DNA of 64,000 nucleotides. It comes from Fluviicola sp. XM-24bin1 (GTDB taxonomy: Bacteria > Bacteroidota > Bacteroidia > Flavobacteriales_D > Crocinitomicaceae). The notes beneath the pieces are model-generated. The model was not told where the DNA came from. It ran no database searches and saw nothing but the letters and a program-made list of their open reading frames with translations. The translations under genes and the position numbers were made by a program. Position 1 is the stretch's first letter. Each line of letters starts with the position of its first letter. Below, piece after piece: positions 2 to 59,256 of this stretch. Location: NCBI GenBank assembly GCA_003149635.1, contig QCWI01000007.1, positions 62,001 through 126,000 on the forward strand. Reading direction: 5' to 3'.

Positions 2-949
2 TCCGGAAATGATTTTGCCATCGATGATATCTCTTTCGGACCGATTTGTATTGTATCCGATACGATTGTTGTAGATCATCAGACGCCTTCGCAAACTACA
101 TCTGTGGTGGATTTATCTTGTCAAGGGGCTTCCGATGCCGAGATTCATGTGGATAATGCTCTGGCAACAGAGTACAGCATGGACAATGGTGTTACTTGGC
201 AGGTTGATTCGTTTTTCTTGAATTTGTCTGCGGGAACCCACGAGATTTGCTCCAGAACAGCCTTAGGTTGTGATGTTTGCGAAACCGTTACAATTATTGA
301 TCCTGCACCTGTTGCAGTATCAGTAAGTCCAGATGTTACCATTTGTCAGAATGGAAGTACGACACTCACGGCAACCGGAGCTGGTGGTACCATTTTCGAT
401 TATCATTGGGACTTCACAGCCGATTTATCCGCGTCGCAAACGGTGACGCCTCCGACATCTTCAGGTCAGGCTACTTACAGCTATACCGTATATGTGGAGA
501 ATGAAAACGGATGTATTTCAGCGACTGAAACCGTCAATGTTACCGTGCTTCCACCATTGTCAGCTACCATTACACCGGCGCAAAGTATTTGTCCGGGAGG
601 ATCAGCTACCATCGACGTTGTCGCTACAGGCGGTGACGGTGGGCCATATACGTATGCATGGAGTTCGGGCCAATCTACGGATCAAATTACCGTTTCGCCT
701 ACTGATACTACGACTTATACCGTGTTAATTGACGATGGCTGTGAAACGACACCTATTTCTGTTTCGACAGTAGTGAATGTGGCTCCGAATCCTGAGCCTT
801 CGTTCCAGATTATAAGTCCATTGCAGTGTGAAACCGGGATCTTCGAAATCATTAATACTACAGATCCGAATTTGACGGATGCGATTGTTTGGACTGTGAA
901 TGGAACGGAAATTTTCATCAATCAGGAGACCATTATTACGCAAGCATAA
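2..949 (+). CDS. Adhesin-like Ig/SprB-repeat protein, 3' portion upstream of an in-frame stop (5' end outside window)
   Basis: The frame is open from base 2, so the gene starts before the window. It encodes extracellular repeat modules: a jelly-roll-type end (GNDFAIDDISFGPIC), a SprB-like module with paired Cys, and at least two Ig/PKD-like modules (ICQNGSTTLTATG, ICPGGSATIDVVATGG). Such modules form long stalks of secreted or cell-surface proteins in Bacteroidota. The frame ends at TAA 947-949, but the same frame continues without another stop into the T9SS sorting domain that ends at 1582, so this and the next entry were probably one gene. No catalytic domain is visible. The binding target cannot be told from the sequence. 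Confidence 0.75.
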   Translation, partial: SGNDFAIDDISFGPICIVSDTIVVDHQTPSQTTSVVDLSCQGASDAEIHVDNALATEYSMDNGVTWQVDSFFLNLSAGTHEICSRTALGCDVCETVTIIDPAPVAVSVSPDVTICQNGSTTLTATGAGGTIFDYHWDFTADLSASQTVTPPTSSGQATYSYTVYVENENGCISATETVNVTVLPPLSATITPAQSICPGGSATIDVVATGGDGGPYTYAWSSGQSTDQITVSPTDTTTYTVLIDDGCETTPISVSTVVNVAPNPEPSFQIISPLQCETGIFEIINTTDPNLTDAIVWTVNGTEIFINQETIITQA

Positions 950-967
950 GACGCTGGTTCCTACGAT

Positions 968-1582
968 TTGGAATTGACGGTAACTTCTCCTGAAGGTTGT
1001 ACTGCTACAACGCTATTCCCAAGCGCATTATACGCAGCTCCGGCACCAATCGCGAATTTTACCTTCAGCCCAAACCCACCAACGATGTTCAACACGCAGG
1101 TGCTCTTCAATAATGGTTCGGTCGGGGCGAATTCCTACGAGTGGACGTTTGAGCAAGGAGTTCCAGCGACCTCAACCATGGAAAATCCAACTACTTTGTT
1201 TCCTGATGGGCAAGTTGGATTGTACGAAACTTCGCTGATCGCCATTTCTGATTTGGGATGTCGTGATACTATGACGGTAGAAATTCAGGTGTATCCGGAG
1301 GTGATTTTGTATGCTCCGAACACCTTTACGCCTGAAGGAGATGAATTCAATCAGACATGGAACGTATTCATTGAAGGAGTGGATATCTACGATTTTCAAT
1401 TAACGATATTTAATCGTTGGGGACAAGTTGTTTGGGAGACTAGCGATCCGAATATGGGCTGGGATGCCACATATAATGGCAATATGGTTCAGGATGGAAC
1501 CTACACTTGGTTCATTACAACACGAGATATTCTGAACGATAACAAATACGAATTCAACGGACACGTAAACGTGATGCGATAA
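968..1582 (+). CDS. C-terminal part of the same protein: gliding motility-associated (T9SS type B) C-terminal domain
   Basis: This is in the same frame as the preceding segment; the codons between the TAA and the nominal TTG start (DAGSYDLELTVTS) continue the Ig-like fold. A PKD-like module (FNTQVLFNNGSVGANSYEWTF) is followed from about residue 115 by the gliding motility-associated C-terminal domain: YAPNTFTPEGDEFNQTWNV, then FNRWGQVVWE and DGTYTWFI. In this family the domain targets proteins through the type IX secretion system. On its own the fragment has no signal peptide, so it would not reach the surface. It is functional only if the upstream TAA is read through or is a sequencing error. 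Confidence 0.75.
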   Translation: MELTVTSPEGCTATTLFPSALYAAPAPIANFTFSPNPPTMFNTQVLFNNGSVGANSYEWTFEQGVPATSTMENPTTLFPDGQVGLYETSLIAISDLGCRDTMTVEIQVYPEVILYAPNTFTPEGDEFNQTWNVFIEGVDIYDFQLTIFNRWGQVVWETSDPNMGWDATYNGNMVQDGTYTWFITTRDILNDNKYEFNGHVNVMR

Positions 1583-1611
1583 AAAAAGCCCGATTCTTTA
1601 GAATCGAGCTT
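1581..1611 (-). terminator. Rho-independent terminator for the minus-strand gene ending at 1636
   Basis: On the minus strand a CGATTC/GAATCG stem with a 4-nt TAAA loop, extended by AAGC/GCTT, is followed by a seven-T run (A1581-1587 on the plus strand). It lies 25 bp past the minus-strand stop. It may also serve the convergent plus gene. Confidence 0.8.
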
Positions 1612-1635
1612 AGTGAATGCACAGTAGCGTTGCTA

Positions 1636-2886
1636 TTAAAATGCGTATTTCAGTTTCAGTTGAAGTCCTGTTGCCAACGATTGTGTTCTGAATAATTCGC
1701 TTGGTACTTTTGCTCTTCCCTCGAATAAGTTAATTGCTCCTGATTGGATGCGCACATTCGCTCCAGCTCTGAAGTGATTGCCAAGTTGTACTGAAGTTCC
1801 TGCGGTAAGAACTCCTCCGAAATCAAAGTTTCTGTAAGTAAAACCAGTGTAATACGAGTTCGTATTGTTGGATGTCACTAGTGTATTAGACAGCATCGAT
1901 CCGAAGATTCCAGCTCCAAAAGTTAATTCTGGTTTCAATGCAGATGTTTTCGAGAACGGAATAATGCGTTCGTATTGCAATGTAGCCGTTGTGTAGGCCA
2001 ATGTTGTCGTAAGATCTTCAGAAGTCAATGAGGCCCCCTGACTTTTATTATCGTTCAGGAAGAATTCCGCCGTGATCATGTTTTTATTGAATCTTCTTGA
2101 TGCCGAGATTCCGTAAGAAAGATTCATGGAGTTTGCGGTGGCAACATCATCGCGGTACGATAACGGATTCAGCAATTTCGAACTTCCGAAGGTAGCCGTC
2201 GGCCCGATGAACCATTTCTGAGTGGGCGTTTCCACATTTTCATTCGGTTCCGTAAAGCGAATGGCTGCCGTATTTCTTGGCTCCATTCCAAATACTGGAA
2301 GATTTCCTTCCGATAAAACGCTTGCTTTCTTAATGTCAAGAGTTGCAAGACTTACACTTTCATTCGCCGCAGTCGAATTACTTACGTTTTGTGCTAACAA
2401 GGTGTTTGCGTTCGTAAGTGATACATTTGAAATCGCAAAGGTGTTAGGTGCAGCATTTTGAATTGTAGTTGGCAATTCAATTACATTGGATGGGCTAGGA
2501 GTCACAACATTATTCGCTTGAGCAGGAGAATTTCCTTGAATCACTTCAAAATCCGAAAAAGGATTCATGCCAACGTTAGCAATCAACATTGGCAGAAATA
2601 CTAGACCCGCAATGAGAGAAGCGGTTCTGAAGTAGTAATTGCGAAGCGCAACTTTTGCATTGTGCCGCATTGCTAACTGCTCAGAAATGGCTTGCCAGCT
2701 TTGATCGTCTTTTTCCGAATTAATTGCAGCCGCATTTGATTGGTACCAATGTTTTGGCCAATCTTCCATTGTTTTCTCAATGTTTCCCCAGGCTTCGTGC
2801 GGAGGGATGACGTTGAGATCTTTCACTCTGTCTTTATACCACTTTCCTACCGAATCCTTCATATCGTCCAATTTCATCTTCGCCAA
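1636..2886 (-). CDS. Single-pass membrane protein with C-terminal outer-membrane beta-barrel-like domain, downstream of an ECF sigma factor
   Basis: 416 aa. Residues 1-85 are soluble and charged with two W-rich helical repeats (HEAWGNIEKTMEDWPKHW, DDQSWQAISEQL), like cytoplasmic N-termini of anti-sigma proteins. Residues about 88-107 form one membrane helix (TASLIAGLVFLPMLIANVGM). A low-complexity N/S/A-rich linker follows to about 215. The C-terminal 200 residues show alternating beta strands ending in an aromatic residue (LKLKYAF), as in PorT/OmpA-type eight-stranded barrels. The start overlaps the sigma gene by 53 bp; ATG at 2877 (MKLDD) is an alternative. Being co-transcribed with the sigma factor, it may control it, but no anti-sigma domain is firmly recognisable. 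Confidence 0.75.
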   Translation of the reverse strand: MAKMKLDDMKDSVGKWYKDRVKDLNVIPPHEAWGNIEKTMEDWPKHWYQSNAAAINSEKDDQSWQAISEQLAMRHNAKVALRNYYFRTASLIAGLVFLPMLIANVGMNPFSDFEVIQGNSPAQANNVVTPSPSNVIELPTTIQNAAPNTFAISNVSLTNANTLLAQNVSNSTAANESVSLATLDIKKASVLSEGNLPVFGMEPRNTAAIRFTEPNENVETPTQKWFIGPTATFGSSKLLNPLSYRDDVATANSMNLSYGISASRRFNKNMITAEFFLNDNKSQGASLTSEDLTTTLAYTTATLQYERIIPFSKTSALKPELTFGAGIFGSMLSNTLVTSNNTNSYYTGFTYRNFDFGGVLTAGTSVQLGNHFRAGANVRIQSGAINLFEGRAKVPSELFRTQSLATGLQLKLKYAF

Positions 2887-3439
2887 GGTTCTCTAAGAGA
2901 AGATTTCTTAAATATTTTTTCGCTTTAAATAACTGAGACTTCGAAGTTCCTTCCGTGATCTCCAGTTTTGCTGCAATTTCTTTGTGCGTATATCCTTCCA
3001 TATAAAACAGGTTCAAGACCAATGCATAGCCGTCAGGAAGCTGAGCAATAATTTTCAAGAATTCATCTCGATCGTAAATTGTCTCTTCTTCATCCTCTTC
3101 GTGGTTGCGGTATTGAGCACGTTCCGTCTCTTCATCTGTTAGCTCCAACTTGTTCTTCGACCAACTGTCAGAACGGTAATGATCGACACAATTGTGCACA
3201 ATAACAGTTCGAATCCAACCACCTAATGAACCGTGATCTTTCGCTTTGAAAAGGTGAATTTTCTGGAATACTCTTAAAAATCCTTCCTGCAAAAGATCGC
3301 TTGCACCATCGTAATCTTTCGAATACATTAGACATACTTTGAACATATCACTCGCGAAGCGATCGTACAACTCCTTCTGAGCTGCTGGCTTGCCATTACG
3401 ACAACCTTTGAGTAATATTTTCTGCTGTCTGTCTGTCAT
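2834..3439 (-). CDS. ECF-type RNA polymerase sigma factor
   Basis: 201 aa, the usual size for group 4 sigma factors. Region 2 lies at about residues 25-95 (DLLQEGFLRVFQKIHLFK is the typical sigma-2.2/2.3 helix). An acidic linker (EEDEEETIYDRDE) precedes region 4 (LPDGYALVLNLFYMEGYTHKEIAAKLEITEGTSKSQLFKAK), which holds the helix-turn-helix that reads the -35 DNA. It begins directly after the stop of the upstream lipoprotein gene (TAA then ATG) and overlaps the downstream membrane protein, so the three genes form one operon. The activating signal is unknown. The C-terminal 25 residues after region 4 are not conserved in the family as I know it. Confidence 0.93.
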   Translation of the reverse strand: MTDRQQKILLKGCRNGKPAAQKELYDRFASDMFKVCLMYSKDYDGASDLLQEGFLRVFQKIHLFKAKDHGSLGGWIRTVIVHNCVDHYRSDSWSKNKLELTDEETERAQYRNHEEDEEETIYDRDEFLKIIAQLPDGYALVLNLFYMEGYTHKEIAAKLEITEGTSKSQLFKAKKYLRNLLLENLGEDEIGRYEGFGRKVV

Positions 3440-4132
3440 TTATTGAAAACCTACAACAAAGGATTCTCCTATTTTACCACTGATGGCGTTGTAAATGTTT
3501 GTGTTGTTTAATTCGTTCACAGCTATTGTCTGTGCACCATTGTTGTTGGTCACTGCAGCTGCATTCCAAAGTCCGGGGATCAAGTCCGAAAATAGGATCT
3601 CCATATCAAGTTTTAGAGATAAACTTTTCGAGTCGTTTTCTTCTAACAAGATGGTTGTGGAACCGTCTGTATCAAGCAATTGTGAAGTAATGTCCTGATC
3701 GATGTTTAGTGCAATGATTACATCGTATGTGTCTCCATTTCCGCGGTAATACGTTCCATGAATATTTACCGATGGTGCACCGTTCGAAATAACGGCTGTG
3801 TTGAAGTTCATTTCAGGATATGTCCCAACAGGGAATTCCAATTCTTTACCAGCAACTGGGTTTAAAAAATCAGTACTTGCGTTGTCAGCCAAAGTCAGGC
3901 TCATATCACCCGCTTGAATGCTCTCACCAGAGATTTGAATATCGGCAAGATTCAAGGTGATTTGATCCATCACAAAGGGTTGTCCAGCAATCTCCACTTC
4001 ATTACTACTTGCAGCGAAAATCACTGATGACTTTGTTGTTTTGTTCAAATGCTGCTTGTTGCAAGCCGTAAAAGCAAATGCCGCAAACAGTAATAGAACG
4101 GTAGCAAAAGATTTGTATTGAGTTAGTTTCAT
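3440..4132 (-). CDS. Exported lipoprotein of unknown function, first gene of the sigma operon
   Basis: 230 aa. The N-terminus is a lipoprotein signal: a hydrophobic core LLLFAAFAF followed by the lipobox TAC, with Cys24 as the expected lipidated residue. The rest is beta-rich with many T/S/N residues (DQITLNLADIQISGES) and resembles DUF4382-like carbohydrate-binding-type lipoproteins only in general character; I do not assign a family. It leads the operon with the ECF sigma factor and the beta-barrel protein. A -7-like element TATCTTTA (minus strand, about 4171-4164) lies about 32 bp upstream of the ATG. Start chosen because it gives a complete signal peptide. Confidence 0.75.
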   Translation of the reverse strand: MKLTQYKSFATVLLLFAAFAFTACNKQHLNKTTKSSVIFAASSNEVEIAGQPFVMDQITLNLADIQISGESIQAGDMSLTLADNASTDFLNPVAGKELEFPVGTYPEMNFNTAVISNGAPSVNIHGTYYRGNGDTYDVIIALNIDQDITSQLLDTDGSTTILLEENDSKSLSLKLDMEILFSDLIPGLWNAAAVTNNNGAQTIAVNELNNTNIYNAISGKIGESFVVGFQ

Positions 4133-51999: not shown

Positions 52000-53091
52000 A
52001 TGCACCTTTCTGACATTAAGTTTGATTGTCGTCATTTTCGAACTGGAATACCTTGTAAACCCAACAAAGAGTTTGATGCGGAGTGTCCATCATGTACACA
52101 TTACGACCCCATCAAAAAGCGCTTGTTGATTATCAAGTTAGGAGCCTTGGGAGATGTTATTCGTACTACACCCTTGCTTCAAAAATTCAAGTCAGAACAC
52201 GAAGGATTGCATATTACGTGGTTGACACTTTCTCCAGCCATTCTTCCTCAAGATAGCATCGATCAAATTTACCGATGGGATGAAACGTCATTGTACATCC
52301 TAAGGAATACAAAGTTTGATATTGCCATCAACCTTGATAAAGATGTGGAAGCATGCATGCTCTTGAGTGAAGTTTCTGCAGAAACCAAATACGGTTTTTC
52401 TTGGGAAGATGGACATATCGCTGCGGCAACTCCAAATGCGGTACACAAACTTATCACTGGATTTTTCGACGGTCGATCGAAGGAAAACACCAAAAGTTAC
52501 CTAGAAGAAATCTTTGAAATCTGCCATTTCGAGTTCGGAATGGAAGACTATGAGATCAACCTTAATAAGGATCTAGCGGCGAAGTGGAGAGAACGCTTGA
52601 AGGCTATGGCGGGCGATAAGAAAATTGTCGGCTTGAACACCGGTTGCGGCCCTCGCTGGAAAACACGTTTGTGGTCGGAAGCGCAATGGGAAGCATTGGC
52701 TACGCAACTGAAAGAAAATGGCTATTTCCCGGTATTTCTCGGTGGACAGTTGGAAGATGAGAAGAACGCTCGAATGTCCAAAAATACTGGAGAACATTAT
52801 CCAGGACATTTCTCTTTGGAAGAGTTTATCAGTCTCACTGATTCCTGCGACATCATCGTAACGCAAGTATCCATGATGATGCACATTGCTACAGCCTTGA
52901 AAAAGAAACTTGTTCTGTGCAATACCATTTTCAATAAATACGAATTTGAATTGTACAACCGTGGAGTGCTAGTTGAGCCAACAACGGGTTGTGAATGCTA
53001 CTTCGGAAATTCTTGCGTGCGCAATCACGCTTGTATGTTGGATATTACGCCGGAACAATTATTATCTGCAGTGAAATCTTTGGATGCATGA
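52000..53091 (+). CDS. Glycosyltransferase family 9 (ADP-heptosyltransferase-like) with Cys-rich ends
   Basis: 363 aa. GT9 motifs: LLIIKLGALGDVIRTTPLLQ at the start of the Rossmann core, then VGLNTGCGPRWKTRLWSEAQ and the C-terminal ITQVSMMMHIATALKK-type motif (VTQVSMMMHIATALKK). Odd features: an N-terminal C-x7-C-x10-C-x2-C cluster (residues 10-32) and a C-terminal Cys/His stretch (CECYFGNSCVRNHACML), perhaps a metal site or disulfide-like knuckle, not in standard heptosyltransferases. Likely adds a sugar to LPS core. Overlaps the next gene (ATGA). Confidence 0.87.
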   Translation: MHLSDIKFDCRHFRTGIPCKPNKEFDAECPSCTHYDPIKKRLLIIKLGALGDVIRTTPLLQKFKSEHEGLHITWLTLSPAILPQDSIDQIYRWDETSLYILRNTKFDIAINLDKDVEACMLLSEVSAETKYGFSWEDGHIAAATPNAVHKLITGFFDGRSKENTKSYLEEIFEICHFEFGMEDYEINLNKDLAAKWRERLKAMAGDKKIVGLNTGCGPRWKTRLWSEAQWEALATQLKENGYFPVFLGGQLEDEKNARMSKNTGEHYPGHFSLEEFISLTDSCDIIVTQVSMMMHIATALKKKLVLCNTIFNKYEFELYNRGVLVEPTTGCECYFGNSCVRNHACMLDITPEQLLSAVKSLDA

Positions 53092-54203
53092 AAGTAGCGA
53101 TCCTCTCAACAGCCTATCCGCTTCGAGGTGGAATTGCGCAATTCAATGGATTATTATACCGAGAATTCGAGAAGGATCACGAGGTGAAGATGTTCACCTT
53201 TAAGCGACAGTACCCCAATTTTCTTTTTCCGGGAGAAACGCAATACGTAACTGAGGATGACGACGCAGATCCGATCCCATCAACGGAGATTCTGGACACT
53301 GTCAATCCTTTTTCTTATTGGAAAACAGCGAAAGAAATAAACAAGTACAATCCAGATGTGTTGATCACCAAATACTGGATGACCTTCTTCGCGCCTTCAC
53401 TAGGAACGGTTTTGAAACGCTCGAAAAACGCCAAGCGCATTAGCATCTTGGATAATGTTATTCCGCACGAAAAGCGCTTTTTTGACGCTCCTGCCAATCG
53501 ATATTTCTTGAAGCACAACGATGGTTTTGTGGTGATGAGTGATGTGGTGATGAACGATTTGCTCTCCATCAAACCCGATGCGAAGTATTTGCGAATTGAT
53601 CATCCGGTGTACAATCAGTTTGGAGCATCGATTCCGAAAGACGAAGCCATTGCCGCATTAAACTTGCCGAAAGGAAAGAAGTTCTTGCTGTTTTTTGGTT
53701 TTATTCGAAAATACAAAGGCTTGGATCTTCTCATTGAATCATTGAATTCCTTGGATGAAGATTACCATGTGATTGTTGCAGGGGAGGTGTACGGTTCATT
53801 TGACGACTATCAAGCGTTAATTGACAAGCACGGATTACAGGATCGTGTCCACAAATTCAATCAGTACATTTCCGATGAGGAAGTAAAAACGTATTTCTCG
53901 GCAGCAGATGTTTGTATGCTTCCATATAAAAGTGCTACGCAAAGTGGAATTACCGCAATCGCGCACCATTTTGAAATGCCGATTATTGCAACGGATGTCG
54001 GAGGCTTGAAAGAAAGTATCGAACATCAAACGACTGGTTTGATTGTTGACAAAGCAGATCCGGTTGAGATTGCATCATCCGTGAAGGCCTTCTTCAATGA
54101 TTTCGATCCTAAAGCTATGCGAACAGCCATTCGGAAAACGAACGAAGAGAACACCTGGGAGAAATTCTCAAAGCGAATTATAGAGTTCGCTGAAACCTTG
54201 TAA
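53088..54203 (+). CDS. Glycosyltransferase family 4
   Basis: 371 aa from ATG 53088 (MKVAILSTAYPLRGGIAQFN); the frame opens at 52995 inside the GT9 gene. N-terminal GGIAQFNGLL acceptor loop, then FFGFIRKYKGLDLLIESLNS and the E-x7-E-like donor part SAADVCMLPYKSATQSGITAIAHHF, ATDVGGLKESI. Coupled to GT9 by the ATGA overlap. Acts in surface polysaccharide/LPS synthesis. Confidence 0.92.
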   Translation: MKVAILSTAYPLRGGIAQFNGLLYREFEKDHEVKMFTFKRQYPNFLFPGETQYVTEDDDADPIPSTEILDTVNPFSYWKTAKEINKYNPDVLITKYWMTFFAPSLGTVLKRSKNAKRISILDNVIPHEKRFFDAPANRYFLKHNDGFVVMSDVVMNDLLSIKPDAKYLRIDHPVYNQFGASIPKDEAIAALNLPKGKKFLLFFGFIRKYKGLDLLIESLNSLDEDYHVIVAGEVYGSFDDYQALIDKHGLQDRVHKFNQYISDEEVKTYFSAADVCMLPYKSATQSGITAIAHHFEMPIIATDVGGLKESIEHQTTGLIVDKADPVEIASSVKAFFNDFDPKAMRTAIRKTNEENTWEKFSKRIIEFAETL

Positions 54204-54204
54204 A

Positions 54205-54636
54205 ATGCTCAGACTTCTCTTCTCAATCCTCGCGCTCACATCTGTTATTGTTGGTTGTTCGCCTGACGCCGACAAAGAGATTGTTTTAAAAGTAGATTAT
54301 TCTCCAGTTCTGGAGCGCATGGCCCGACCCAATGATTCAAAATTCAAGGAAGTTTTGGAAGCAACGCTGAATCAGGGATCGAAGGAACATCTTGTCGATG
54401 CTTTTTTTAAGAATGCGAAGCGTCTGTATCCGAGCGTTGCATATCGCTATTACTTCAAGTGGGAGGAGGGCATTAAGGCGGGAACCAAGAATAAGAAAGT
54501 CAAGCAAATCGTCCGAGATCGATGCGATGAGATGATGAATCACATGACGGATAATATGAATGAAACGCTTCCAGCCAAATTGGTGGTGGTTGACGTAGAG
54601 CAGTTGAATCATTCAAAACTCAAAATTTACGTATAA
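54205..54636 (+). CDS. SecD-like P1 lipoprotein, N-terminal part before an in-frame stop
   Basis: 143 aa as encoded. Lipobox VIVGC (Cys18). The mature part resembles the periplasmic start of Bacteroidota SecDF: EIVLKVDYSPVLERMARPND (SecDF: ITMEISIPGMIENYGRDIDP) and KEVLEATLNQGSKEHLVDAFF. No membrane helix follows, unlike SecD. It ends at TAA 54634-54636 right after LKIYV, where the real SecDF reads RIYVELPGVQDEKTVAEK; the codon in the stop position corresponds to its Glu. The frame continues open into the next entry. Starts one base after the glycosyltransferase stop. Confidence 0.75.
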   Translation: MLRLLFSILALTSVIVGCSPDADKEIVLKVDYSPVLERMARPNDSKFKEVLEATLNQGSKEHLVDAFFKNAKRLYPSVAYRYYFKWEEGIKAGTKNKKVKQIVRDRCDEMMNHMTDNMNETLPAKLVVVDVEQLNHSKLKIYV

Positions 54637-54768
54637 ACAAAATTAAAAGACGAACACATTCGCGAAATTTTTGAAAATCATCTGGATCTTCATATTTATG
54701 AGACCTACGGATTATCAGAGCTTCAGGATCTTAGAGATCACCTTCATGAAGAGCTAAATCCCTTTCTT

Positions 54769-55353
54769 GTGGCTAATGCGGAGGGAGATGATCAAGATTC
54801 AATGAGCCTTAGTAATGTATATGTCCCCAAAGAAAGTGTATGGAGTGAATTTCAATTCGATGCACGTTTTGGTTCCGAGATGTTCATAGCTGGGCATCTA
54901 GCCAGGGAATTAATGGATTCCTTGAATCAACCGCAGTTCACAGGCAATGGAAAGATTAAGTTTATAGCCCATGAAAATCCTCGTGTCGCACCGGGAATGG
55001 TGAGCATACACGCATGCAATATTGATCCAATTCAAGAGCGTACCATAACAAAAGAGCATATCGAAGGAGCTATTAGTTACTCAAATCAAGGTCAATTCGT
55101 AATTGATTTGCAATTAGATCAAATTGGAAGCGAACGATCCGGGCGCCTAAGTTTGGAAAATATCGGACGAACGCTAGCAATCGTTATCAACGGAAGGATA
55201 ATTATGGCTCCCGTAGTAAATGATTGCATCAGAGATGGCCGCATTCAGATCTCTGGAGACTTTACCGAAAGCGAGGCGGAAGAATTGGCATCGATCCTAA
55301 GCAGAGGCACCGCTACATTACCCCGTAAAGTCCTTTCCATTAAAGCGATATAA
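54769..55353 (+). CDS. SecD-like P1 lipoprotein, C-terminal part (same frame as preceding)
   Basis: 194 aa from the nominal GTG; the frame is in fact open from 54637 (TKLKDEHIREIFENHLDLHI, YETYGLSELQDLRDHL). LSLENIGRTLAIVINGRIIM and APVVNDCIRDGRIQISGDFT match, residue for residue in outline, the SecDF P1-head strand in this window (NAGRQVAITLDDVVYSAPNV, NEPIRGGNTQISGGFSIEEA). Lacking a signal of its own, this part is useful only as part of the whole. Together the two parts would be a 382-residue lipoprotein with the P1 region of SecD and none of its six membrane helices. Confidence 0.72.
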   Translation: MANAEGDDQDSMSLSNVYVPKESVWSEFQFDARFGSEMFIAGHLARELMDSLNQPQFTGNGKIKFIAHENPRVAPGMVSIHACNIDPIQERTITKEHIEGAISYSNQGQFVIDLQLDQIGSERSGRLSLENIGRTLAIVINGRIIMAPVVNDCIRDGRIQISGDFTESEAEELASILSRGTATLPRKVLSIKAI

Positions 55354-55391: not shown

Positions 55392-55928
55392 ATGTTGAAG
55401 ATCACAAGCATAGTATCCTCGCTAATTTTCCTACTCTTCGTAGGTTCAGGTTCGTATGCACGCACATTTGCGAAGCAAGCTCAGCAACAGAAAACGGACG
55501 CGTCCGCCGAAGCTACTGTGAAGGAGGAAGCGAAAGGAAAGCAAGACAAAGAAGAAGAGTCCTCAGAGGAGAACGAAGTAGATGGTAAGCCCTTCGAAAC
55601 GGTAGTTCAATTGGACGTTTTTCAAGCCATTTCTTTGGTAAATGCGCAACTCCGTTGGAAAGATTACCATGCCGAGAACTCTCGTCAAGCGCGAAGCTTC
55701 TTTTCCAAAAAGCAAAATCTAGAGGTTGGTCAATCTGAAGATGTAACAGAATTTTTCAACCTTCAATCGGTAGCTCTTGGGCTTCCCGAGATTGAACAAA
55801 CCTTCATTTTCAGTATCTGGCCAACTATGGCTGCTCCCATTTCGGATATTGAAGGAAGCCGAAATGCTCAAGATCTAACGATCGCATTCATTCTTAATTG
55901 CGGTACATATCCACATCTTCAGTCCTAA
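55392..55928 (+). CDS. Exported protein of unknown function upstream of secDF
   Basis: 178 aa from ATG 55392 (MLKITSIVSSLIFLLFVGSG), a good signal peptide; GTG 55365 in the same frame adds nine residues. A K/E/A-rich charged spacer (KEEAKGKQDKEEESSEENEV) is followed by a compact domain (KPFETVVQLDVFQAISLVNA to the end). No family recognised. 39 bp after the SecD-like gene and 175 bp before secDF; could serve the same export process. Confidence 0.65.
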   Translation: MLKITSIVSSLIFLLFVGSGSYARTFAKQAQQQKTDASAEATVKEEAKGKQDKEEESSEENEVDGKPFETVVQLDVFQAISLVNAQLRWKDYHAENSRQARSFFSKKQNLEVGQSEDVTEFFNLQSVALGLPEIEQTFIFSIWPTMAAPISDIEGSRNAQDLTIAFILNCGTYPHLQS

Positions 55929-56103: not shown

Positions 56104-59100
56104 ATGCGTAACAAAGGATTTTTTTGGTTTTTGACAATCTTGATGACAGTCATTTGTCTCTACCAATTATCATTCACATTCGTAGCAAACGGTATTGAGA
56201 AAGATGCCGAGAAAAAAGCAGACAAGAAAGTAGAAGAGTTGTTTGCCAATGCGGAAGCGAATGGTCAGGACAGCGTTGTCTTAACATACAGTGGAGTTAA
56301 GATTGCAGTAGCGAGCCCTGAATCAAGAGAAATTGCGAAAGCAGATTTCATCAACGGAATTCTTTCCGAGAAAAACGAGGACGAAGTGTACCCGGTTCTT
56401 GGAACGAAATTCAAAGATGTTAAGAAACAAAGTTTGGCACTCGGACTTGACCTCGTAGGGGGAATGAGTATCACTATGGAAATTTCCATTCCTGGTATGA
56501 TTGAAAACTACGGTCGTGACATCGATCCGAAATTCCGTCGAGTTAAGGAAGCTGCCGATAAAGAATATAAGAACGGAGGAGATTACATTGAAATCTTCCT
56601 TGCGAAGAATGCTGAACTCAACAAGAAAGCTCCAGTTGCTAAAATCATGGCGACGCACAAGATGGAAAACATCGGGCGTCAGTCAAGCGATGAAGAAGTG
56701 GAAGAGTTCTTGCGCAAGATTGAAAGTTCTGCAATGGATGGAGTTGAGGAAATCATCAACCGTCGTATCAACCAGTTCGGTGTGGCTCAGCCAAACATTC
56801 AGTTGGACAAAGAGCAAAACCGAATCTATGTAGAACTTCCAGGGGTTCAGGATGAGAAAACAGTAGCCGAGAAAATTGGTAGTGTAGCGAACCTTGAATT
56901 TTACGAAACATGGCAGTTGGGAGAAATCGCAGCGCAGTGGAACGAAGTATTGACAAAATCTCAAACACCACTTGGTGAAGATGGAGATGAGGTAATCGCA
57001 GTAAACGATTCAACGGATGCTAGCGGTACAGATACTACAATGACTGATGGAAATGACATCGTTGAAGCAGGAGCTGAGGCTGATTCACTAGATTCATTGG
57101 ATAATGAATTCTCAGAAGATGAATTGACACTGGACGATCCAGTGGATGGAGAAAGTGCTGACCCAACCAATCCAAATCAAGGGCCAGAGACATTGATCCA
57201 GTTGATCATTCCTTTGAACGATGCACAAGCAGCACAAGTAGCTTATGTTGCACCGGCAAACAAAGCGAAAGTAAAAGACATCTTAAGTCGAAGCGATTTG
57301 ACGATTGCAGGTGTGAAGTTCATGTTCTCTGAGCAGACGTACGAAATCAAAACGAACGACGGACGTAAAGAGCAAATGCACTTTATGTATGCAATTAAAG
57401 TTCCTCAAGATGGAGCGAAATTGACTGGTAAAGACATCGCAACTGCATCAGACGGATTCGACGCTGAGAGCGGAGAAATCACTGTAAACCTTCAGATGAC
57501 TGACGAAGGTGCTGAGAAGTGGGCACAGATGACTACTGAAAACGCAGGACGTCAGGTTGCCATTACGTTGGATGACGTTGTATATAGCGCGCCAAACGTA
57601 AACGAGCCAATTCGTGGAGGTAACACTCAAATTTCCGGAGGATTCTCTATCGAAGAAGCACAAGCATTGTCTGGACTATTGAACGCAGGGGCACTTCCAG
57701 CACCGTGTGAGATCATTGAGCAGTCGCGTGTAGGTCCTACAATTGGGGCAGAGAACTCGCAAGCTGGTTTGATGTCATTCATCATCGCATTGCTTTTGGT
57801 ATTCGTGTACATGATTTTCTACTACGGTAAAGCAGGAATCATTGCAGATATCGCCTTGTTCGCGAACATCTTGTTCATCTTTGGTTCATTAGCATCATTC
57901 GGAGCGGTATTAACGCTAGCGGGTATTGCCGGTATCGTACTTACGATTGGTATGGCCGTGGATGCGAACGTACTAATCTTCGAACGTGTCCGAGAGGAAC
58001 AAGCAGCTGGTAAAGATCTCAAGTTGGCAATTGACACTGGATTTAAGAAAGCCTTGTCTTCGATCATCGATGCGAACGTTACAACAATGTTGACAGCGAT
58101 CGTATTGAAGTCATTCGGACAGGGGCCAATCGAATCATTCGCTACAACTTTGATCATTGGTATCTTCACTTCCGTATTTGCTGCCTTGGTAATTACACGT
58201 TTGTTCATGAACTGGTGGATGAACCGTGGAAACGCGATCAACTTCGAATCGAAAATGACGAAGGGCGCATTCAAGAACTTCAACATCAACTTCGTTGACC
58301 GTCGTAAAACGTTCTACATGATCTCAGCAGTTTTGGTTGTTGGAAGTATCGCGATGATTGCCATGCGTGGATTCAGCGAAAGTGTGGAATTCTCAGGAGG
58401 TCGTACCTACGGTGTGAAGTTCGAGAAAGAAGCTGAATCGCACATCGATGCACTGGAAGCCAACTTGAAAGATGTATTGGTTGACGCGGACGGAAAAAAA
58501 GCGTCTGTGGAGATCAAGAAGAAAGACAACAGTCTCTTCCTTGAAATTTCAACAAACTACTTGTTGGATGAAACAGGAGCAGAAATTGCAGACTCCGTAA
58601 AACGCCAAATCTCAAGAGGTTTGACAGCATCTTCTGAATTGGTTGGAACGCACGAATTCATCGATAGCCGTTCCGTATCGAATAAATTGAAGGAAGAGTT
58701 GGCAAGTTCATCAACAATTGCGATTATCCTATCATTGATCATCATCTTCGGATACATCTTGATGCGATTCGGTAGATGGCAGTACTCAACTGGAGCGATC
58801 ATCGCGATGATGCACGACGTAACAATCGTACTTGGTATCTTCGCAGCCCTCCACGGAATCATGCCGTTTAATATGGATATCGATCAGGCCTTCATTGCCG
58901 CCATTCTAACGGTAATTGGATATTCGATTAACGATACCGTAATTGTATTCGACCGTATTCGTGAAAACCTTGGATTGCATAAATCAGACAACGAGCAGAA
59001 TCAGATCAACCGATCGTTGAACTCTACCTTGTCTCGTACGATTAACACGTCCATGACAACATTCATCGTATTGTTGATCATCTTCATCTTCGGTGGAGCA

Positions 59101-59256
59101 GCCATTAAAGGCTTCATCTTCGCCTTGATGATTGGTGTGATTGTCGGGACATACTCTTCTGTATGTATTGCAACGCCAGTATTGATTGACTTCTCAGGAA
59201 TGAGAAAGTCGAAAAAATCGGCTGAAAAGAAAGAAGTTGCTGCCGCAGACGCATAA
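56104..59256 (+). CDS. secD: Fused protein translocase subunit SecDF
   Basis: 1050 aa, the Bacteroidota SecD-SecF fusion. N-terminal helix, large periplasmic P1 (about 120-560, with an acidic D/E/T-rich insert near 300-355), SecD membrane half with [26 protein letters not shown] (helix 4, D for proton use). SecF part from about 720: [18 protein letters not shown] and [24 protein letters not shown], the conserved motif. Uses proton motive force to pull proteins out of the Sec channel. Own promoter and terminator. Confidence 0.97.
   Translation: [1050 protein letters not shown]

Follow-up and report, generated by a model that had tools for sequence, protein, structure and literature searches.

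The subject of this study is a broken gene, related to the P1 domain of the export protein SecD, that lies upstream of secDF in Fluviicola sp. XM-24bin1. The window, which is the whole stretch of DNA analysed, covers 64,000 nucleotides of contig QCWI01000007.1 (positions 62,001 to 126,000, forward strand) and belongs to a genome of 3.63 Mb in 19 contigs that is 99.86% complete (G000). The features at the locus, in positions of the window, are as follows.

53088..54203, + strand: glycosyltransferase gene (Pfam Glycos_transf_1), with its stop codon 1 bp ahead of the ATG of the P1 gene
54205..54636, + strand: broken SecD-P1-like lipoprotein gene, part 1, 143 aa, with signal peptide, lipobox and N-terminal P1 base
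54256..54258, + strand: codon of the lipobox cysteine, Cys18 (VIVGC), by pattern match
54634..54636, + strand: in-frame TAA; a sense codon stands at the same place in the intact relative G010
54637..55353, + strand: P1 gene, part 2, 238 codons, with the remaining P1 base and the P1 head; first ATG at 54802
55039..55308, + strand: SecDF_P1_head (PF22599) match by Pfam, E 5.1e-19
55392..55928, + strand: 178-aa gene between the P1 gene and secDF
56104..59256, + strand: intact secDF (1050 aa), from which the P1 homology stems

A P1 gene in two frames

The first frame begins with MLRLLFSILALTSVIVGC, which carries the lipobox cysteine, and continues with SPDADKE. The lipobox rule applied to Cys18 is the generally known one. 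No second hydrophobic stretch can be seen by eye behind the signal peptide in the joined protein. Beyond the TAA the same frame runs on for 238 further codons to a stop at 55351-55353, and the distance from there to the start of secDF is 750 bp.

A first-pass annotation, made from the letters alone, had proposed that the two frames line up end to end with the P1 region of a SecDF encoded 0.75 kb downstream, and that a lipobox replaces the first SecD helix while no other helix is present. These points hold. It had also suggested a profile comparison of the joined translation with SecD P1, a survey of Bacteroidota genomes and a structure prediction. The profile comparison is significant: by hhalign, the joined read-through is colinear with SecDF-only P1 from end to end over 336 columns (Prob 98.6, E 1e-15), and the three pairings of segments quoted in the annotation are recovered.

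The second part is recognisable by itself. It matches the P1 head family PF22599 with 68.7 bits against a cut-off of 27, the P1 structure in PDB entry 3aqo (E 3.2e-10), its own SecDF by BLASTP (34% over 85 aa, E 9e-15) and P1 by hhalign (Prob 98.3). When the whole source genome is searched with it, the matches are itself and SecDF only. For part 1, adding two stand-alone relatives to the alignment raises the hhalign match to Prob 91 (E 1e-6).

Further evidence is provided by G010, a member of the same genus in which the gene is intact. Its protein of 377 aa, encoded in one frame, aligns with the joined window protein over 380 columns (22.6% identity, E 1e-21). Since a single-frame protein matches the whole length, both window frames were once one gene, which by these alignments is derived from P1 and carries a lipobox. 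The possibility that the frames encode two separate proteins was rejected: the first GTG (54769) and ATG (54802) of part 2 fall inside the fold and yield no signal peptide, and part 2 has no export signal of its own.

What is retained is the P1 domain in diverged form. The window protein keeps 28 of the 87 residues that are invariant in SecDF P1 (16 of 38 in the C-terminal half), and G010 keeps 44 (25 of 38). PF22599 scores above its cut-off in all seven stand-alone relatives of one test set and both of another. The SecD_1st domain (PF21760) stays below its cut-off in two of seven relatives tested, G010 and G535; the other five, and the window frames, give no match to it. Neither window frame matches Pfam SecD_SecF_C, and no space is left for helices 3' of P1. 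The predicted structure of the G010 protein, the third check suggested, keeps the full P1 fold. The P1 base topology of the stand-alone proteins is visible in the structure models alone.

The annotation knew of no described family with this plan, and none was found here. The NCBIfam secD model TIGR01129 (cut-off 244.4 bits) gives 59.6 for part 2 and 87.5 for G010, with the SecDF models also far under their cut-offs; none of five stand-alone relatives tested reaches an NCBIfam cut-off. Databases may well label such proteins by their Pfam domain. Among titles and abstract openings, mostly of non-subscription articles, on the SecDF P1 head, SecD P1 lipoproteins or paralogues and Crocinitomicaceae SecDF, no paper describing such P1 proteins was found.

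Relatives of the stand-alone protein

In the genus, 34 genomes were searched, 33 gave a match, and 31 loci were read between the upstream gene and secDF. A P1 copy adjoins secDF in six. Two are intact, namely G010 and G004, the latter with a SecD-like helix in place of the lipobox. The other four are broken: the window copy (G000) by its TAA, G014 by a frameshift, G003 by a stop near the 5' end and a frameshift near the 3' end with no start found, and G012 is reduced to a C-terminal remnant. The same glycosyltransferase gene lies 5' of the P1 gene in G010, G004 and G014 as in the window. No clear P1 frame occurs at the site in 25 of the 31; one genome, G005, may hold a weak P1 scrap (tblastn E 0.003; blastp E 2e-4 over 26 aa), which is outside the count of six.

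Among the Crocinitomicaceae, 150 genomes were searched and 33 inspected in detail. A stand-alone P1-like frame shorter than 480 aa, matching the head only in some cases, is present in at least 27 of the 150 and in 10 of 24 genera. This lower bound includes the broken G000 and G012; it excludes G490, G491 and G579, which have at least two matches, and G568, which has contig-end fragments only. In seven family genomes (G000, G010, G012, G036, G472, G478 and G505) the copy is just upstream of secDF with at most a small gene between. The survey suggested by the first-pass annotation shows that a P1 lipoprotein beside secDF recurs, for example in G010, G036, G472 and G584, but this placement belongs to only seven of at least 27 family carriers. 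The lipoprotein adjoining secDF is only one form of a wider stand-alone P1 set.

In the order, 249 genomes were searched, and the 32 from outside the family that had two or more matches were inspected. G584 encodes a 420-aa lipobox P1 protein 210 bp 5' of secDF, and G597 a 345-aa one that is not beside secDF. Across 395 genomes of the phylum, at least 11 among the matches listed have two P1-head matches; ten have a second frame of 143-348 aa, and G390, also one of the 11, resembles one gene in two pieces. Named secDF loci have a P1 neighbour in at least four of 80 (L120, L123, L129 and L158, which are G014, G004, G010 and G012), a lower bound since some of the loci have little upstream DNA. 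A plasmid search with the protein of the Fluviicola-type group described below returned 38 records; among the 30 listed, the named features are SecD or SecDF.

Other forms were observed in passing. Seven loci (L094, L205, L206, L207, L223, L225 and L230), from Crocinitomicaceae and other Bacteroidota, encode proteins of about 150-180 aa that consist of hardly anything but a P1 head; several of them have a lipobox. L208 (G565, 2532-3452, + strand) encodes a lipobox protein whose P1-like part seemingly lies, by eye, between repeats of the YxxG-NGK kind, a possible fusion. The 306-aa protein of L093 (G028, 941-1858, - strand) has an N-terminal hydrophobic stretch and matches profile positions 4-263, not the head part.

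Under a fixed rule, a lipobox is present in 25 of 34 stand-alone P1 frames; for comparison, 26 of these loci contain 179 frames of at least 140 aa, P1 frames among them, and 36 of those have one. The count omits G003 and G012, which have no N-terminus, and G584, G597 and G610, whose lipobox was recognised by eye. The second copy of G459 and the G530 copy failed the rule, though each looks lipobox-like by eye. A SecD-like helix takes the place of the lipobox in G478 and G505 as well as G004.

A further group is found in genus g199 (Fluviicola-type), where nine of the 14 genomes in the family sample have a stand-alone frame. In the eight loci read, the lipoprotein is 234-253 aa long, is missing the initial portion of P1 and is encoded close to metG, the gene for methionyl-tRNA synthetase; the exonuclease VII large-subunit gene is on the other side in five of the eight, and the other stretches are too short or cut. 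Pairwise dN/dS is 0.137-0.208 in five pairs, with a sixth saturated. Such low values mark this branch as a maintained protein family. The SecDF of L185 (CP034120.1), a record titled Glaciecola amylolytica, which is a gammaproteobacterial name, groups with Fluviicola; the record is probably misnamed.

Bacteroidota surface lipoproteins carry an export signal (LES) right after the cysteine, given in excerpts of PMC5080379 as K-(D/E)2 or a run like SDDDD or SDDFE. Among 11 mature starts, K-(D/E)2 occurs in that of G497 alone (CSNKEEDT), one place past the optimum, and neither the window protein (CSPDADKE) nor G010 (CGRAGDKY) has it after the cysteine; the consensus may not be the one used by this family.

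Gene conversion, with probable duplication and decay

A tree was built of 67 P1 rows, 24 of them stand-alone, with small and far diverged stand-alone frames left out. In it, the copies of G003 and G004 each pair as sister with the SecDF from the same genome, and those of G478 and G505 fall together with the SecDF from this pair of genomes; every one of these groupings has starred support. The other P1 lipoproteins sit on long branches. The tree program warned of long branches that meet (G000 with G535, G036 with G472) and of an odd letter make-up in G000 and G535. Taken alone, the pattern would suggest repeated births of stand-alone copies. Counting independent duplications from it was dropped as unsafe, because gene conversion draws copies towards their own SecDF.

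An example of such conversion can be found in G478 (L106), where a stand-alone P1 gene (3445-4836, - strand) adjoins secDF (129-3254, - strand). Compared with secDF as DNA, the copy shows 51-66% identity in its first part and 98-100% in much of its last half, with long tracts of identical codons. The converted part of this SecDF compares with the SecDF of G515 and G545 at 0.81 and 0.80, and the other part at 0.80 and 0.81. Because the converted part is as close to relatives as the rest, secDF overwrote the copy and not the reverse; the DNA of this genome documents the partial replacement of a tandem P1 copy. A role of the tandem copy as a donor cassette, from which conversion would diversify the SecDF P1 head, is therefore very improbable: conversion between copies is real in G478, but this sole tested case runs from secDF to the copy.

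In G014 (L027, - strand, between 1969 and 1745), a 46-bp repeat of the glycosyltransferase 3' end, 98% identical, separates the P1 copy from secDF; it is the trace expected of a tandem duplication, or of recombination at that end. Remnants of this 3' end elsewhere are weak (G013, E 0.004 to 3e-4; G010, E 0.77), and these values come from a very small database.

Copies close to their own SecDF, conversion, this repeat and the breakage of four of six genus copies could all be expected if every P1 copy beside secDF were functionless debris of recurrent tandem duplication of the secDF 5' half, with lipoboxes arising by chance. This explanation is unlikely. The copies of G010, G036, G472 and G584 are intact despite far divergence, the modelled one would keep the full fold, and lipoboxes are much more frequent in P1 frames than in the comparison frames. 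Purifying selection acts in the Fluviicola-type group, though that group sits elsewhere in the genome.

Stand-alone P1 genes would instead start as partial duplications of the secDF 5' half; some copies may retain the SecD-like helix, older ones would have acquired a lipobox in its place, and many would decay. The window copy appears to be in the last state. Its nonsense codon is the single stop in 382 codons, so that the frame is not open throughout. Among the genomes compared, its nearest relatives by the SecDF tree are G025 and G018, which both keep the glycosyltransferase gene, a gene of the 178-aa type and secDF without a P1 frame. G018 retains a 31-bp remnant of the P1 gene 3' end (26 of 31 identical) that beats all 500 shuffles; a longer match of 51 bp extends past the stop codon, where bases may persist because they serve the following gene as its promoter. 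In the G018 gap 20 bp also match the lipobox region, a likeness within reach of chance (59 of 2000 shuffles), and G025 has no P1 remnant above chance (172 of 500 shuffles). The window copy is the longest branch in the P1 tree, with 4.9 changes per column. A codon-usage score of the two frames failed to separate known coding frames from others and was not used.

The nonsense codon and the loss of the gene in both sister species suggest that this clade is losing it. The window P1 gene is most likely a pseudogene, and in the source organism it very probably does nothing now. Our preferred reading, with a probability of about 0.7, is that the window holds a decaying gene for a lipid-anchored stand-alone SecD P1 domain, the function of whose intact members we infer below. 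The extra lipidated P1 protein proposed by the first-pass annotation thus stands as a P1 derivative with a lipobox, without transmembrane helices and with intact relatives, but not as a working copy.

Several observations weigh against this reading. Part 1 alone has no significant Pfam match, reaches only E 0.097 against its own SecDF by BLASTP, and is weak by hhalign against 27 SecDF P1 sequences (Prob 8.7, E 0.004). The alignments behind the two structure models consist mainly of SecDF P1 sequences, and this biases the models to that fold. With 238 codons still open and 28 of 87 invariant residues kept, the decay, if real, is recent. Intact genes in G010 and G004 of the genus, and in G584, demonstrate that this gene order is able to last; the stop may thus come from faulty sequencing or assembly, or from a mutation that arose lately in a single strain. 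Some breaks in relatives may likewise be errors of fragmented assemblies.

The weakness of part 1 could also be taken to mean an ordinary lipoprotein unrelated to SecD. This was rejected, and its probability is negligible, given the Pfam head match, the BLASTP match to SecDF, the 3aqo match, the hhalign results for part 2 and the joined protein, and the model fold.

A more serious alternative is that a lipid-anchored extra P1 works here to assist SecDF, in which case the stop would be an error, would be read through or would be new in a single strain. G010 has the same place and lipobox without a break, lipobox P1 genes also adjoin secDF in G036, G472 and G584, and the window gene has one stop only. 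This is nevertheless quite improbable in view of the loss in both nearest relatives compared, the long terminal branch, the missing signal peptide of part 2 and the many genus loci without a clear P1 frame. Decay remains the preferred reading.

The 178-aa gene next to the broken copy is a separate observation. Homologues occur in ten of the 31 genus genomes read, where each is the last gene before secDF, and in eight of the 150 family genomes, all of the same genus. The protein has an N-terminal signal (by eye), a block LDFFGAFSLVNIQLQWRDL, a variable linker and a near-invariant C-terminus, IA(F/Y)I(L/Q)NCGTYP plus 3-4 residues. This layout resembles that of the secretion-monitor arrest peptides found upstream of secDF, of which Bacteroidota have Pro-ending ones according to the portion of PMC10987492 consulted. 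Promoter-like sites precede both this gene and secDF, and a weak terminator-like site stands where the 178-aa gene ends; these sites speak against that comparison, in a scan barely above shuffles (6 against 3.7, and 4 against 1.7).

A possible role for free P1 modules

In excerpts of PMC11470409, SecD P1 is described as consisting of a base plus a head that has a substrate pocket; cation influx is believed to drive the movements with which it pulls chains, and the membrane-anchored chaperone PpiD reportedly contacts the head. Models in the consulted part of PMC9987972 place SurA on the P1 head of SecDF.

The stand-alone proteins resemble P1 of SecD and SecDF (PF21760 and PF22599; PDB 3aqo, 3aqp and 5yhf) over the whole fold, base and head, in colinear order, with the head significant by sequence. 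In contrast to SecD and SecDF, they have a lipobox where SecD has its first helix, SecD_1st is below its cut-off or unmatched, and they lack SecD_SecF_C, hence the helices through which the cation gradient moves P1. Among partial tandem paralogues of secDF, the copies in G003, G004, G478 and G505 are still recognisable as its 5' part; the diverged copies carry a lipobox rather than a helix, and the Fluviicola-type ones have lost the first P1 part and lie near metG. With E. coli PpiD and YfgM the likeness is in the proposed role only, that of a tethered periplasmic protein near emerging chains. Those proteins are unrelated in sequence and anchored by a helix.

The first-pass annotation suggested that a membrane-tethered extra P1 might hold or pass on emerging proteins or lipoproteins. 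An intact member could be a passive P1 module, tethered by lipid at the periplasmic face of the inner or outer membrane. Its head would bind unfolded exported polypeptides or periplasmic chaperones, as SecD P1 is thought to do, and with the other helices missing no cation-driven movement would take place. Since a P1 domain without those helices could bind but not pull, we think that the intact lipoproteins bind chains or chaperones passively.

More speculatively, Flavobacteriales, chiefly Crocinitomicaceae, may repeatedly make free, lipid-anchored, energy-uncoupled modules out of the SecDF P1 domain, and these would receive exported polypeptides or chaperones in the space between translocon and outer membrane. 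Copies adjoining secDF would then be the nursery and the Fluviicola-type proteins the settled members. This wider proposal is tentative and has a good deal less than an even chance of being right.

The unbroken relatives show that spun-off P1 domains form a real group, one not found described. Their loci display partial duplication, gene conversion, the change from a helix to a lipid anchor, and decay around an export gene. To our knowledge, binding by P1 has been separated from pulling in engineered constructs only. A natural lipid-anchored P1 without the cation-driven helices would separate the two and lets one ask directly what P1 binds.
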